64,000 nt of DNA from Methylobacter sp. Lineage in GTDB: Bacteria; Pseudomonadota; Gammaproteobacteria; Methylococcales; Methylomonadaceae. How positions within the stretch are numbered: position 1 is the stretch's first letter; each line of letters begins with the position of its first letter. The stretch spans positions 62,001 to 126,000 of the forward strand of contig JAUYMY010000057.1 of NCBI GenBank assembly GCA_030699385.1, given 5' to 3'. Shown here one piece after another: positions 23,312 to 30,149 of the stretch. The notes beneath the pieces are model-generated. The model searched no databases and had not been told where the DNA came from. It saw nothing but the letters and a program-made list of their open reading frames with translations. Position numbers and translations under genes: made by a program.

Positions 23312-23327
23312 AGCAATGGCTATGCCA
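23312..23327 (-). promoter_or_regulatory. Sigma-54 promoter of nirB-nirD-phzF
   Basis: On the minus strand the sequence is TGGCAT-AGCCA-TTGCT, with GG-N10-GC spacing. The predicted start is near 23301, about 30 nt before the nirB ATG. Upstream there are only half-sites for NtrC (GGTGCG on the plus strand at about 23404). No ANTAR-type hairpin pair or terminator is visible in this leader, unlike nrtA. Confidence 0.7.
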
Positions 23328-23520: not shown

Positions 23521-24096
23521 ATGAACGCACTCAATATATTACTTATCGAAGATGAAGCGACTAAGCCGTTATTAGCAAAACAATTGCTCAGTAACGGCTA
23601 TGCAGTCGTCTGTGCGGCAACGCCTGAAGTTGATATTTACACATTAATAACCAAGCACAACCCAAACCTGATTATTTATCAGATCGACAGTCCGCAAAAA
23701 TATTTACACCAGCTTCATTTTATTAAACAGAACCATCCGCTACCCATTATTATTTTTGCCGCCGACGATAGCCTAGATAGCATTAATCAGGTTATTGACG
23801 CCGACGTTAGCGCCTATCTTATTAACGGCCTGGAAATCAGTCGTATTGACAGCATTATTAAGGTCGCCGTGGCCAGATTTAACCGGCAACAGCAACTTAA
23901 CAACGAATTGGAAAAAACCAAAGCCCGGTTGGAAGAACGCAAACTCATCGACCGGGCAAAAGGCATCTTAATCAAAACCCGAGGCTTTAGCGAAGACGAT
24001 GCTTATCACACCCTGAGAAAATTGGCGATGGATCGCACGATTACCATCGGCGAAATGGCGAAAAACGTTATCGCCATGGCCGAGCTGCTTAGGTAA
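23521..24096 (+). CDS. nasT: NasT-type ANTAR antitermination regulator
   Basis: 191-aa protein. A pseudo-receiver domain (about 1-120) is followed by a coiled segment (QQLNNELEKTKARLEERK) and a C-terminal ANTAR RNA-binding domain (IDRAKGILIKTRGFSEDDAY..). NasT proteins bind paired hexaloop hairpins and prevent termination in nitrate-assimilation leaders. Such a leader lies at 25553-25667 before nrtA. The usual phospho-acceptor Asp after the third strand seems replaced by Gln (LIIYQIDSP). I chose ATG 23521, since it gives the receiver start NILLIEDE; the upstream 20 codons look untranslated. The usual partner nasS is missing. It faces the triple GAF gene convergently. Confidence 0.9.
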   Translation: MNALNILLIEDEATKPLLAKQLLSNGYAVVCAATPEVDIYTLITKHNPNLIIYQIDSPQKYLHQLHFIKQNHPLPIIIFAADDSLDSINQVIDADVSAYLINGLEISRIDSIIKVAVARFNRQQQLNNELEKTKARLEERKLIDRAKGILIKTRGFSEDDAYHTLRKLAMDRTITIGEMAKNVIAMAELLR

Positions 24097-25524: not shown

Positions 25525-25540
25525 TGGCATAACGATTGCT
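25525..25540 (+). promoter_or_regulatory. Sigma-54 promoter of the nrt operon
   Basis: TGGCAT-AACGA-TTGCT with GG-N10-GC spacing matches the -24/-12 consensus closely. The expected start near 25551 places the first ANTAR hairpin at the very 5' end of the transcript, so promoter and leader positions support each other. Confidence 0.78.
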
Positions 25541-25552
25541 TTTAATCCAACA

Positions 25553-25667
25553 GAGGCTCCAATGGCGGAGCGCTAAAAAATCTTGGTTCAATGCTGAACC
25601 AAAACAGACAAAGGCGTCTACCCGGCTGAGTACAGTGTGTATTCCGTAGGGTGGCGCTTTTTTTTTT
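25553..25667 (+). promoter_or_regulatory. ANTAR (NasT) antitermination leader of nrtA
   Basis: Hairpin P1 has stem GCTCC/GGAGC with hexaloop AATGGC (25556-25571). Hairpin P2 has stem TTGGTTC/GAACCAA with hexaloop AATGCT (25583-25602). Both loops have A at position 1 and G at position 4, the known ANTAR recognition bases. The linker is 11 nt (GCTAAAAAATC). An intrinsic terminator follows at 25610-25667. This is the arrangement described for NasT and NasR targets. In the model, NasT binding to P1 and P2 prevents termination when nitrate or nitrite is present. Confidence 0.85.
25610..25667 (+). terminator. Leader (attenuator) terminator before nrtA
   Basis: 5' arm AAAGGCG-T-CTACCC (25610-25623) pairs with GGGTGGCGCTTT (25649-25660). 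The stem is about 13 bp with one bulged T, and ten T follow to 25667. The nrtA ribosome site GAGG and ATG 25697 come 20-30 nt later. Confidence 0.8.
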
Positions 25668-25696
25668 ACTGATTTTTCAAACTTGTTGAGGTCGAT

Positions 25697-27094
25697 ATGA
25701 AACAAACCGGACGATTTACTATCAAAAAAGGGGTTGCGGCACTGGTTGTAGCGGCGTCGCTGTTAACTTTTTCAATCACCGTTTATTCCGCTGAAAAGCT
25801 GGAAAAAGAAAGCCTTAAACTCGGCTTCATTAAACTAACCGATATGGCGCCGTTGGCGGTTGCTTTGGAAAAAGGTTATTTCGAAGACGAAGGCCTTTCC
25901 GTACAAGTCGAGGCGCAAGCCAACTGGAAAGTGTTATTAGACCGTGTGGTCAGCGGCGAACTGGACGGCGCGCACATGCTGGCAACGCTGCCTTTTGGTG
26001 CGGCCATCGGTTACGGCACCAAAGCCGATATTGTCAGCGCATTCACTATGACCTTAAACGGCGATGCGATAACGGTATCCAACGATGTCTGGAATCAAAT
26101 GAAGCCGCAGATTCCGGTCAAAGACGGCAAGCCGGTGCATCCGATCAGCGCCGATACCTTAAAACCGGTGCTGGAAAAATACAAAGCGGCAGGCAAGCCG
26201 TTCAACATGGCGATGACCTTCCCGGTCGGCACCCACAATATGAAATTGCGTTACTGGCTGGCGGCTGGCGGCATTAAGCCCGGCTTTTATGCGCCGCCTG
26301 AAGATACCTCCGGCAATATTGATGCCGAAGCCATTTTGTCAGTCACGCCGCCGCCGCAAATGCCCTCGACTATGGATTCGGGCACGATAGTCGGCTACTG
26401 CGTCGGCGAACCGTGGAACCAGCAAGCGGTGATTAAAGGCATCGGCGTACCGGTCATCAGCGATTATGAATTGATGAAAAACAGCGCGGAAAAAATCTTC
26501 GGCGTGAACAAAGAATGGGCGGAGAAAAATCCCAATACCCACAAAGCGGTCATCAAAGCCTTGATCCGCGCCTCAATGTGGCTGGATGCGGAAAATAACA
26601 AGAACCGCAACGAAGGCGTGGAAATGCTGTCGCAAAAACAATATGTCGGCGCTGATTACGAAGTTATCGCCAACAGCATGAACGGCACCTTTGAATATGA
26701 AAAAGGCGACAAGCGCGACTTGCCCGATTTCAACGTATTTTTCCGTCATAACGGTTCTTACCCTTATTACAGCGATGCAGTCTGGAGCCTGACCCAAATG
26801 CGCCGCTGGGGACAAATTAACGAATTCAAACCCGATTCATGGTATCTGGAAACCGCTAAAAAAGTGTATCGCCCCGATGTTTATAGGGCGGCGGCTAAAG
26901 CACTGATTGCCGAAGGTAAAGCGAAAGCCAGCGATTTTCCGGCCGACAGCGAAACCGGCATCAAACCGCCTAGTGCTGACTTTATTGATGGCGTTAGTTT
27001 TGACGCGAGCAAGCCTAATGATTATCTGAGCAAGTTTGCTATCGGGCTTAAAGGAAAGCAAAAAGTAGTCGGCGGCAAGGTGGTTGACGGATAG
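25697..27094 (+). CDS. nrtA: Nitrate ABC transporter substrate-binding protein
   Basis: 465-aa periplasmic protein of the NrtA/CmpA family that captures nitrate for the NrtB/NrtCD importer. An N-terminal Sec signal (about 1-31, ending TVYSAE) follows a basic start. The family core includes LKLGFIKLTDMAPLAVALEKGYF, MLATLPFGAAIGYG and GYCVGEPWNQQAV. The signal peptide separates it from NasS, the cytoplasmic sensor of the same fold. GAGG lies 6 bp before ATG 25697. It is the first gene of the operon behind the sigma-54/ANTAR leader. Confidence 0.94.
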   Translation: MKQTGRFTIKKGVAALVVAASLLTFSITVYSAEKLEKESLKLGFIKLTDMAPLAVALEKGYFEDEGLSVQVEAQANWKVLLDRVVSGELDGAHMLATLPFGAAIGYGTKADIVSAFTMTLNGDAITVSNDVWNQMKPQIPVKDGKPVHPISADTLKPVLEKYKAAGKPFNMAMTFPVGTHNMKLRYWLAAGGIKPGFYAPPEDTSGNIDAEAILSVTPPPQMPSTMDSGTIVGYCVGEPWNQQAVIKGIGVPVISDYELMKNSAEKIFGVNKEWAEKNPNTHKAVIKALIRASMWLDAENNKNRNEGVEMLSQKQYVGADYEVIANSMNGTFEYEKGDKRDLPDFNVFFRHNGSYPYYSDAVWSLTQMRRWGQINEFKPDSWYLETAKKVYRPDVYRAAAKALIAEGKAKASDFPADSETGIKPPSADFIDGVSFDASKPNDYLSKFAIGLKGKQKVVGGKVVDG

Positions 27095-27241: not shown

Positions 27242-28258
27242 ATGCATAAGCAACTGATAAAGTTTTTAAACATCACCGGACTGACTTGGTTTGTCCCGCT
27301 GGTAAAAATAGCTGCCGGTGAAAATGCCACGCTGCAAATCCGTCAATTGTGGCTGATTATGGGCGTGCCTATTCTCGCCTTCATGGTCTTTCTGGGGCTT
27401 TGGAGTTTTTCCGCATCGAAGGTCAACACCAGTCTGGGCACTATTCCCGGCCCGGTTGCGGTCTGGCACGAGGCGGGCGGGTTGCTGCACGACCATTACG
27501 CCGAACGCGCCAAAGAGGCCGAGTATTACCAACGCCAGCAAGCGCGTAATGAGCAAAAGCTTGCGGAAGACCCGGCGGCTGAAATCAAAATCCGCCCCTA
27601 TAACGGCCAAGCCACCTACCTGGATAAGATTTACACCAGTCTGTACACGGTGTTTGCAGGCTTTGTCATTGCGACCTTGATCGCCGTGCCGCTGGGTTTA
27701 TTCTGCGGCATGAATCCGGTGTTCAACACCGCGATCAACCCGCTGGTGCAGATTTTCAAGCCTGTATCGCCGTTGGCATGGCTACCCATCGTCACGTTGG
27801 TGGTCAGTGCGGTGTATGTGAGCGGCGACGATGCCTGGTTTGAAAAATCGTTCCTGACTTCAGCGGTGACCGTCACCTTGTGTTCGCTGTGGCCGACGTT
27901 AATTAATACCGCCATCGGCGTATCCTCGATAGACAAAGATTTGATCAATGTCGGCAAGGTGTTGCGGCTTAGCTGGAGCACACAAATCAAGAAAATCGTG
28001 TTGCCGTCTGCCTTGCCGTATATCTTCACCGGAATGCGTTTGTCGCTGGGCGTGGGCTGGATGGTGCTGATTGCGGCGGAAATGCTGGCGCAAAATCCGG
28101 GGCTGGGTAAATTCGTTTGGGATGAATTCCAGAACGGCAGTTCCAATTCCTTGGGTCGGATCATGGTCGCGGTGTTTACCATCGGACTGATCGGCTTTGC
28201 CCTGGACCGGATCATGCACTCTTTACAGAACCTGTTCTCTTTCGGTAGGGCACTTTAA
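27242..28258 (+). CDS. nrtB: Nitrate ABC transporter permease
   Basis: 338-aa inner-membrane permease. A first span lies at about 36-56 ([19 protein letters not shown]). A charged loop at about 85-125 ([20 protein letters not shown]) follows. The BPD-transporter core occupies about 130-335, with the EAA-type loop around [21 protein letters not shown]. Paired with NrtA and the double ATPase NrtCD. The start at ATG 27242 has GGTACCGACC upstream and no strong Shine-Dalgarno; the REP hairpin lies just before it. Confidence 0.93.
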
Positions 28259-28307
28259 ATATTTATACACGTCCTACCGAATAATTATGTTTAACCGGGA
28301 GCCGAAG

Positions 28308-30149
28308 ATGTCAGTCGTAAACCTTAACATTGTCAATAAACGTATGCCCAACAACCCAACAGAGCCCTCGAATGACGCCTATCAGCCTTTACTGGAATTA
28401 AAAGCGGTCTGCAAAAGCTATGGCGCGAATTCGATTCTGAGCAACATCAACCTGAGCATAAAAGAAGGCGAGTTTGTTGCCATCGTCGGTTTTTCCGGCA
28501 GCGGCAAAACCACGCTGATTTCAACCATTGCCGGTTTGATACAGGCCGATAGCGGCGAAGTGCTGAAACAAGGATCGCCGATTACCGAACCGGGACCGGA
28601 TCGCGGCGTGGTGTTCCAGAACTATTCGCTGATGCCGTGGCTAACCGTGTTTGAAAACGTGGCGTTGGCGGTTGACCAGATTTTCAAACACTGGCCAGCC
28701 GAACAGCGTCGGGCGCATACCGAAAAATACGTCAGGATGGTGAACCTTGGTGCGGCGATGGACAAAAAACCGGCTGAACTGTCCGGCGGCATGAGGCAAC
28801 GGGTCAATGTCGCGCGCGCCTTGGCTGCCAGCCCCGATATTTTATTGCTAGACGAACCGCTTAGCGCGCTGGATGCGTTGACGCGCGGCAATTTGCAGGA
28901 CGAGATTTTGCAAATCTGGGCGCAGGAAAAGAAAACCGTCATCCTGATTACTAATGATGTCGATGAAGCCATCTACATGGCAGACCGGGTCATCCCGCTG
29001 AATCCCGGCCCCGATGCGACTTTCGGCCCGGATTTTGCCGTCAATATCGAGCGCCCACGGGACCGCACCGCGTTAAACCACAACCCTGAATTTAAACGCT
29101 TGCGCGCCGAAATCACCCGTTATTTGATGGATATTGGCATTGAGAAAAATACAGGGACGGCGAGCAATAAAATCATTTTGCCTAAAGTAAAGCCGAACAC
29201 TGACGTGGATTGGAATCGTACTTATTCGGTTATCGCCGCGCCTGTTCCCGACAGGCTTGCGGCATACACACCATCCCTGGCGATTGCCGCGCCTGTTCCC
29301 GACAGGCTAGCGGCATACACACCATCCCTGGCGATAAAACCCACGACGGAGGGTTTAGCCCGTCCGCGTTACCTGGAGTTTTCAAAATTATGCAAAACCT
29401 ACCCGACACCCGACGGCAATAGCTCGGTCAAGGTCGTGGACGGTTTCGACCTGAAAATGAAAAAAGGCGAATTCATCTCAATCATCGGCCATTCCGGCTG
29501 CGGCAAGTCCACCGTGTTGTCGATGACCGCAGGCCTGAACAGCATATCCGAAGGCGTCATTATCCTGGACAACAAGGAAATCGACAGCGCCGGGCCTGAT
29601 CGCGGCGTGGTGTTCCAATCACCCAGCCTGTTTCCTTGGCTGACCGCGTTTGAAAACGTGATGCTGGGCGTCGATAAGGTCTATCCCCATGCGTCCAAAT
29701 CGGAGCGCGATGATATTGTTGAATATTATTTGACCCGCGTCGGCTTGGGCGACTCGTTGCGCAAAAAAGCCGCCGACCTGTCTAACGGCATGAAGCAACG
29801 GGTCGGTATCGCCCGCGCCTTTGCCTTGTCACCCAAGTTACTGTTATTGGATGAGCCGTTCGGGATGCTGGATTCGTTGACCCGCTGGGAATTGCAGGAA
29901 GTGTTGATGGAAGTCTGGGAGCGGACACAGGTCACCGCGATTGTGGTTACCCATGATGTCGATGAGGCCATATTGCTGGCCGACCGGGTAGTGATGATGA
30001 CCAACGGCCCGCATGCCAAAATCGGTAAAATCCAAGAGATTGATCTGCCAAGGCCGCGCAGCCGCAAAGCCTTGCTGGAACATCCCGATTACTACAAATA
30101 CCGGGAAAGCATCTTGAGCTTCCTGACCGAATGCGACCATACGCATTAA
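28308..30149 (+). CDS. Nitrate ABC transporter, two ATPase domains fused in one chain
   Basis: 613-aa protein. Domain 1 (about 25-270): Walker [10 protein letters not shown], signature LSGGMRQR, Walker [13 protein letters not shown]. Domain 2 (about 355-600): Walker [10 protein letters not shown], altered signature LSNGMKQR, Walker [13 protein letters not shown]. In cyanobacteria NrtC and NrtD are separate, and NrtC has a substrate-binding extension that is absent here. The fusion gives the importer its ATPase pair from one gene. The linker (about 309-343) holds a tandem 17-residue duplication ([17 protein letters not shown] twice) encoded by a 51-bp DNA repeat. Start ATG 28308 has GGGAG 7 bp upstream. 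In domain 1 the switch His appears as Asn (LITNDVDEA), while domain 2 keeps His (VVTHDVDEA), so the two sites may differ in activity. Confidence 0.92.
29235..29335 (+). repeat. In-frame 51-bp tandem repeat in the nrtCD linker
   Basis: Two copies (29235-29285 and 29286-29335) differ at only a couple of positions. Each contains CCTGTTCCCGACAGG, a small palindrome, and CATACACACCATCCCTGGCG. The unit is a multiple of three and has no stop in the used frame. It looks like an extragenic repeat that entered coding sequence. Confidence 0.85.

Follow-up and report, generated by a model that had tools for sequence, protein, structure and literature searches.

The DNA analysed here is a 64,000-nucleotide (nt) stretch of a Methylobacter sp. 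genome (contig JAUYMY010000057.1, positions 62,001 to 126,000; the window), in which an nrtA-like gene, named from its gene context, is preceded by a leader with an intrinsic terminator. Numbered by window position, the leader and the gene behind it comprise the following features:

25525..25540, forward strand: sigma-54 promoter (-24/-12), TGGCATAACGATTGCT, from reading of the sequence
25551 (about +/-2), forward strand: predicted transcription start, placed 12 nt past the -12 GC
25556..25571, forward strand: P1, hexaloop hairpin GCTCC-AATGGC-GGAGC, from sequence, fold and pair changes in the alignment
25583..25602, forward strand: P2, middle hexaloop hairpin TTGGTTC-AATGCT-GAACCAA, from sequence, pair changes and loop conservation (A at the first and G at the fourth position, hereafter A1/G4)
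25606..25619, forward strand: P3, hexaloop hairpin AGAC-AAAGGC-GTCT overlapping the terminator, putative antiterminator, from sequence and alignment
25610..25667, forward strand: intrinsic terminator (stem 25610-25661, ten T 25658-25667), from the fold, -26.3 kcal/mol
25697..27094, forward strand: nrtA-like gene for the nitrate-binding protein of an ABC transporter, heading the controlled operon (PF13379, 298.4 bits)

Judged from its sequence, this leader is very probably a transcription attenuator of the NasT type, with ANTAR hexaloop hairpins in a tandem of three, and switching would proceed in the classical way through P3.

Anatomy of the nrtA leader

An earlier note on this DNA had described a sigma-54 promoter followed by a complete two-hairpin ANTAR antitermination leader, and the elements that it named are all present. 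The promoter follows the pattern TGGCAY-N5-TTGC with GG-N10-GC spacing (GG at 25526-27, N10, GC at 25538-39), and sigma-54-dependent transcription usually starts 12 nt beyond the -12 GC. P1 and P2 both carry A1/G4 hexaloops, and the terminator has its 13 lower pairs and ten T, with an extra stem on top and one bulged U (25617) among the lower pairs. The count of two hairpins was too low, as a third A1/G4 hexaloop had been overlooked: P3 begins 3 nt past P2, compared with a gap of 11 nt between P1 and P2, and its loop and 3' arm form the first ten bases of the terminator 5' arm. The 7 nt by which P2 ends short of the terminator had been taken as a hint of a different switching mechanism. We reject this proposal, as P3 occupies the gap and overlaps the terminator in the manner described for P2 of the eut and nasF leaders; since P3 thereby stands in for the classical terminator-overlapping P2, no different mechanism is needed.

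The locus thus combines a P1 with an A1/G4 hexaloop, a further A1/G4 hexaloop overlapping the terminator and an ANTAR protein encoded in the genome, the features by which ANTAR leaders were recognised here. A strict dual-hairpin leader has two hexaloops and no more; with three A1/G4 hairpins, the present leader is therefore filed apart from plain dual-hairpin ANTAR leaders.

The structure exceeds what is expected by chance. The leader folds at -45.6 kcal/mol, compared with -30.55 +/- 3.35 kcal/mol for 200 shuffled sequences (z = -4.49), none of which reached as low a value. Tandem triples of A1/G4 hexaloops (stems of 4 or more base pairs, 2 or more of them G-C, and gaps no longer than 20 nt) occur once on the forward strand of the window, namely in this leader, and not at all on its reverse strand; among 100 first-order random strands of 64 kb, 2 contained one. 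Furthermore, a model built from 61 family leaders, including this one, scores the site at 73.5 bits, with the runner-up in the window at 13.7 bits. Taken by itself, the sigma-54 pattern is a weak argument and not significant in 64 kb, as three matches with at most one mismatch were found in the whole window and 3.76 are expected; the weight of this element comes from its conservation and not from window statistics.

Conservation and co-occurrence with ANTAR genes

Among 121 genomes of the same family that were searched, 76 contain nrtA. Upstream regions were parsed for 74 of these (G082 and G040 were left out, the leader of G082 being seen separately), and 63 of them hold the P3 core, while the remaining 11 consist of two with a leader match and no poly-T run (G027, G052) and nine without any match. 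The alignment comprises 61 rows, after exclusion of one identical row and, by hand, of one leader that was too divergent (L069, from G111). A sigma-54-like element is present, by a loose pattern, within the 80 nt searched upstream of all 62 distinct leaders. In the 61-row alignment, 89.2% of cells are paired, and the covariation of the whole structure is 0.301, compared with 0.173 in shuffled alignments (0 of 500 as high), a statistic that ignores shared ancestry, and with 0.038-0.106 for slid structures.

Each of the three hairpins contributes to this signal. Both-side changes are seen at all 6 pairs of the aligned P1 helix, and A1 and G4 occur jointly in the P1 loop of 50 of the 61 leaders. 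For P2, changes on both sides are found at 4 of the 5 aligned pairs and an A1/G4 loop in 52 of the 56 rows (of 61) that are ungapped there, with the outermost aligned pair failing in 35 of the 50 rows lettered on both sides. P3 is the most conserved element of the leader: its inner GAC/GTC stem is invariant and its loop is A1/G4 in 61/61 leaders, and its outer pair is formed in 50/61, where six types of pair occur and both sides have changed 23 times.

A strong match to the P1-P2-P3 model was obtained in 66 of the 121 genomes, and a weak one only in G104 and G111. The model yields a single site in the genome under study, and the idea of a second leader there was rejected. Among the 76 genomes with nrtA, 64 combine a strong leader match with an ANTAR match, two have a leader only, one an ANTAR match only and nine neither; the last nine fall in four genera (g8, g14, g22, g26) and are thus not nine independent events. 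The hosts of this leader family are probably methane oxidisers, and a literature search combining methanotroph, nitrate and ANTAR domain found nothing.

Besides those upstream of nrtA, 22 of 25 family sites were read (7 + 15; G038, G090 and G104 were left out). Pfam supports one EAL gene and one receptor gene behind these sites, and the other downstream names given here rest on resemblance. The 15 extra sites include ten before nirB-like open reading frames (ORFs), one before an ORF of the major facilitator superfamily (MFS), one before a 96-codon ORF resembling an EAL protein, and three that resemble chance (L349, L350, L352). The seven others lie near the nas cluster in four genomes of the same genus: three are followed by EAL-protein ORFs (in one case with no terminator), three by chemotaxis receptors, and the last by no ORF of 80 or more codons that begins within 400 nt. 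Loci L103, L105, L107 and L114 carry such leaders upstream of EAL-domain and methyl-accepting chemotaxis genes, and nitrate may affect motility in these genomes.

In relatives, a three-hairpin leader precedes nirB. In the window, a perfect sigma-54 match lies on the reverse strand at 23312-23327, about 40 nt before the nirB ATG (23271), without a leader; the roughly 30 nt between the predicted start and this ATG are too short to hold one, and a leader before the genome's own nirB was rejected.

At the level of the class, 13 sites (L165-L177) from a set of 25 genomes were inspected. Seven look like two-hairpin leaders (L165, L166, L167, L170, L171, L173, L174; the last loop of L167 starts with G), L172 has three hairpins, L176 has the last hairpin and terminator only, and L168, L169, L175 and L177 resemble chance.

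Switching, rival accounts and the partner of NasT

The observed anatomy, conservation, overlap of P3 with the terminator and co-occurrence with ANTAR genes can be read as follows, where NasT binding, read-through, the nitrate signal, the partner of NasT and the role of P2 are what we infer. In calculated folds of the growing transcript, P1, then P2, then P3 form in turn, and with the 3' ends tried between 25619 and 25650 the minimum-energy fold includes P3, which is lost at 25655, as the terminator 3' arm emerges. RNA polymerase with sigma-54 would thus start at about 25551, and the three hairpins would fold one after the other as the transcript lengthens. With the RNA at about 25655, the terminator would displace P3, because the P3 loop and 3' arm belong to its own 5' arm, and transcription would stop near 25667. 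If nitrate or nitrite is present, free NasT would bind the hexaloops and hold P3, leaving the terminator without its base and without closeness to the U tract, so that nrtA would be read. The middle hairpin P2 would serve as an extra NasT site, which may raise affinity or cooperativity through the loading of a second dimer; in one view, one dimer would sit on P1 and P2 and a second on P3, and in another a dimer would bridge P2 and P3. This adapts the general ANTAR model, in which P2 overlaps the terminator and a dimer binds two hexaloops (PMC3369931, PMC3369936; the overlap is also described in PMC8934654).

Several observations weigh against this reading. P3 is weak alone (-2.3 kcal/mol, compared with -26.3 kcal/mol for the terminator), so something must hold it, and in 16 of the 61 leaders an RNA ending just past P3 lacks this hairpin in its minimum-energy fold. 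The minimum-energy fold furthermore adds an A-U pair inside the P2 loop, leaving four bases unpaired, and the open hexaloop of P2 is therefore a reading and not what the fold predicts. The P2-P3 gap of 3 nt equals a linker with which induction of eutP by EutV was drastically reduced (PMC3369931), so P2 and P3 are not necessarily spanned by a single dimer. Part of the conservation of P3 is shared with the terminator, which also holds the P3 3' arm: all three GTC bases pair into the terminator in 58 of the 61 leaders with poly-T, the leader studied here being among the three exceptions because U25617 is bulged. Moreover, two genomes have a leader and no ANTAR match (G040, G067), the genome in the ANTAR-only class (G111) does contain a leader, though a divergent one that matches weakly (E 0.0143), and the co-occurrence count ignores shared ancestry.

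Other accounts accommodate some of these points. NasT might bind P1 and P2 only and affect termination without a terminator-overlapping hairpin, for example through contact with RNA polymerase; P1 and P2 are both conserved, and their gap of 11 nt lies inside the 5-12 nt range of Enterococcus faecalis eut leaders, whereas the 3 nt between P2 and P3 lie outside it (PMC3369931). We regard this as improbable, since the most conserved element, in 61/61 leaders, is P3, and the middle hairpin is optional, with 32 of the 81 sites listed in the scan described below having one upstream hexaloop. Still less credit is due to the idea that P3 is a by-product of the terminator, in which GGCGTC pairs with GACGCC, the upstream GAC arose by chance and NasT uses P1 and P2. 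The terminator indeed constrains the P3 loop and 3' arm as well, but it starts downstream of the P3 5' GAC and of the base flanking this on the outside; even so, GAC is found in 61/61 leaders and the outer pair covaries, and the independently built Rfam family RF03032 ends in the same element.

Equally improbable, in our view, is control of the leader by another signal or protein, such as a metabolite or a nitrogen regulator, with NasT being incidental. The leader co-occurs with ANTAR genes and contains A1/G4 hexaloops, and NasT of Paracoccus binds the nasA leader when nitrate is present (PMC3795266); these points speak against such control, and in its favour are the two genomes with a leader and no ANTAR match and the fact that we infer both NasT binding and a nitrate-sensing partner here. 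Overall, conservation, co-occurrence with ANTAR genes and resemblance to described leaders lend good support to a sigma-54-driven, ANTAR-controlled antitermination leader, as the earlier note had proposed.

For attenuation through P3, the regulator and its putative partner are encoded close by:

23521..24096 (longer ORF from 23461), forward strand: nasT-like ANTAR regulator, ANTAR domain at 69 bits
24360..25277, reverse strand: triple-GAF protein of 305 residues, GAF_2 in three stretches, between nasT and nrtA

The NasT-like protein, about 1.5 kb upstream of the leader, is the sole ANTAR match (71.7 bits) in the genome, which is 87.8% complete. Its receiver domain has Q where three NasTs of genus g15 have D, and this Asp, which we take to be the phospho-acceptor, is absent in 9 of the 12 aligned NasTs. 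NasT is thus probably not phosphorylated in the usual way and a partner is expected, by which, as the sequences suggest, it is most likely held. The only PF13379 match in the genome is NrtA itself, and at the stated completeness this absence of NasS is not proof. NrtA acting as NasS was rejected, as this sole PF13379 protein heads the controlled operon and has, by eye, a signal-like hydrophobic start.

As no NasS was found, the foremost candidate for the partner of NasT is the triple-GAF protein, which would be the nitrate sensor. Its start (moved to 25277) and a length of 305-308 residues are common to 26 aligned proteins. The gene is found in 39 of the 121 family genomes, each with an ANTAR match, and adjoins nasT in 31 of these: in 29 on the same strand, 36-78 nt past the ANTAR domain, and in two, including the present genome, on the opposite strand. 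Among NCBIfam models at E of at most 0.001, the protein matches only the nitrate receptor NreA (NF038250; 28.1 bits, compared with a cut-off of 175), and 17 of the 26 relatives match this model at E of at most 0.01. When PDB sequences were searched with the GAF profile, six weak matches were obtained, NreA being the weakest (E = 0.41), and the same search with the third GAF domain alone gave three weak matches, none of them NreA. The likeness to NreA is thus a lead only. GAF domains within ANTAR proteins are discussed in PMC7496416.

Some findings tell against a role of this protein as partner. In 8 of the 39 genomes, the GAF gene lies far away from nasT or on a different contig, and many family genomes with nasT have no GAF match (69 with ANTAR, 39 with GAF). 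Relatives outside the family were found in 4 of 367 sampled genomes of the class. In one of these, from another gammaproteobacterial family, an NrtA/NasS-like gene, nasT, the GAF gene and nirB lie in a row (L356), so the GAF protein need not replace NasS; the other three gave no NasT match within the stretch fetched. Some genera of the family have an NrtA/NasS-like gene beside nasT. In several genera without the GAF gene, nasT lies directly behind a NarK-like MFS gene (L033, L043, L054, L078), possibly another sensor arrangement.

A more far-reaching reading, which we advance tentatively and consider rather doubtful as a whole, is that in this family the sensor of NasT was swapped for a triple-GAF protein, distantly resembling NreA and mostly encoded directly behind nasT, that would hold an unphosphorylatable NasT and release it on nitrate. 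The middle hexaloop would then have been gained for cooperative loading of two dimers, P1 and P2 first and P3 afterwards, giving a sharper switch, and in sister species the regulon would reach beyond nitrate uptake and nirB to chemotaxis receptors and enzymes of cyclic di-GMP metabolism.

Behind nrtA, the window continues with two further transporter genes:

27242..28258, forward strand: nrtB-like permease (PF00528)
28197..30149, forward strand: double ABC ATPase, nrtC/nrtD-like (PF00005, two stretches)

The true start of the double ATPase probably lies downstream of the first TTG of ORF 28197-30149, and the linker joining its ATPase halves holds two copies of a 17-residue direct repeat. Elsewhere in the window, three consecutive tRNA genes lie at 1799-2127 (Rfam RF00005).

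Relation to described leaders and to narK RNA

The P3 hairpin is not peculiar to this family. Named genomes were scanned for exact matches to GACAAAGGCGTC with a matching terminator arm and a T run behind them; this gave at least 120 stretches, 80 of which were examined, corresponding to 81 sites. Among these 81, one upstream A1/G4 hexaloop hairpin is present at 32, two at 18 and, by the criterion applied, none at 31. The last group includes leaders from Pseudomonas and Comamonadaceae with interrupted or short P1 stems as well as sites of the Lachnospiraceae type at which no A1/G4 hairpin is visible upstream. Since the same hairpin and terminator stand behind a single upstream hexaloop at 32 sites, the middle hairpin is an optional part; P3, in our reading of the sequences, is the counterpart of the P2 that overlaps the terminator in described ANTAR leaders, and the middle hairpin would be the extra one. 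Among the sites listed, two upstream hairpins occur in Methylococcales (L196, L206, L213, L220, L226, L262) and also in Thiodiazotropha (L188) and in Rhodoferax, Limnohabitans and Comamonadaceae (L203, L204, L214, L242, L260), and three-hairpin leaders are thus not confined to the family.

The same hairpin and terminator without, by this criterion, an upstream A1/G4 hairpin were seen at L193, L207, L222, L227, L230, L237, L246, L250, L256, L258, L263 and L264, in Lachnospiraceae and other non-proteobacterial records, and several of the genes behind them look, by eye, like glutamine-amidotransferase-type genes. Such lone GAC-AAAGGC-GTC hairpins are possibly single-hexaloop attenuators.

The leader also resembles Rfam RF03032 (narK RNA), whose consensus consists of a sigma-54-like site, a hairpin with the hexaloop AACGGC and CGACAAAGACGUCG, and whose structure line draws the first hairpin only. 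Window positions 25526-25620 align to RF03032 positions 1-72 with two 1-nt gaps and a 25-nt insertion (25581-25605) that contains P2; the score of 24.3 bits is below the gathering score of 43.2. Among 12 leader-bearing loci, four reach the gathering score (57.1-77.5 bits), from three Pseudomonas and one metagenome-assembled genome of Pseudomonadaceae. Three of these overlap sites of the GACAAAGGCGTC scan, and the fourth is another leader in its locus, an RF03032-type leader at L189 3060-3200. Rfam matches to HOXA11-AS1_6, mir-1322 and P11 were below their gathering scores and taken as chance. These sequence comparisons suggest that RF03032 represents a sigma-54 promoter with an ANTAR leader of the dual-hexaloop kind, in which the second hairpin, overlapping the terminator, is left undrawn, and this would give the RNA an identity; the literature searched contained no mention of narK RNA or RF03032 that we found.

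What had been suspected to be a new mechanism thereby becomes a testable variant of a known one. Natural leaders that share the GAC-AAAGGC-GTC hairpin form a series of one, two or three hexaloops, which bears on the question, raised in PMC8934654, of the extent to which a single hexaloop is sufficient and of how dimers load; with its gaps of 11 and 3 nt, the three-hexaloop leader offers a natural test of the dimer-loading views. Furthermore, the GAF protein offers a candidate sensor for nitrate assimilation where NasS was not found.

Among the described systems, the Klebsiella nasF/NasR leader is alike in its P1 with an A1/G4 hexaloop and in a P2 that overlaps the terminator (PMC3369936), and in a Buttiauxella leader (L232), GAC-AAAGGC-GTC follows a single A1/G4 hairpin. 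The Klebsiella leader differs in having two hairpins and a NIT-ANTAR regulator, whereas a receiver-ANTAR protein is encoded here. The eut/EutV leaders of E. faecalis share dual A1/G4 hexaloops, the second of which overlaps the terminator (PMC3369931, PMC8934654), and differ in having two hairpins, 5-12 nt apart, under the control of a sensor kinase. In the EutX sequence, an additional single hexaloop lies beside the dual motif (PMC8934654), and three hexaloops per RNA are thus not without precedent. NasS-NasT of Paracoccus denitrificans is similar in that NasT binds a hairpin leader and is freed by nitrate (PMC3795266), whereas in the present genome no NasS was found and a triple-GAF gene lies beside nasT. 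Compared with these systems, the nrtA leader is a three-hexaloop leader of the known ANTAR type, and what is new in it is the extra hexaloop.

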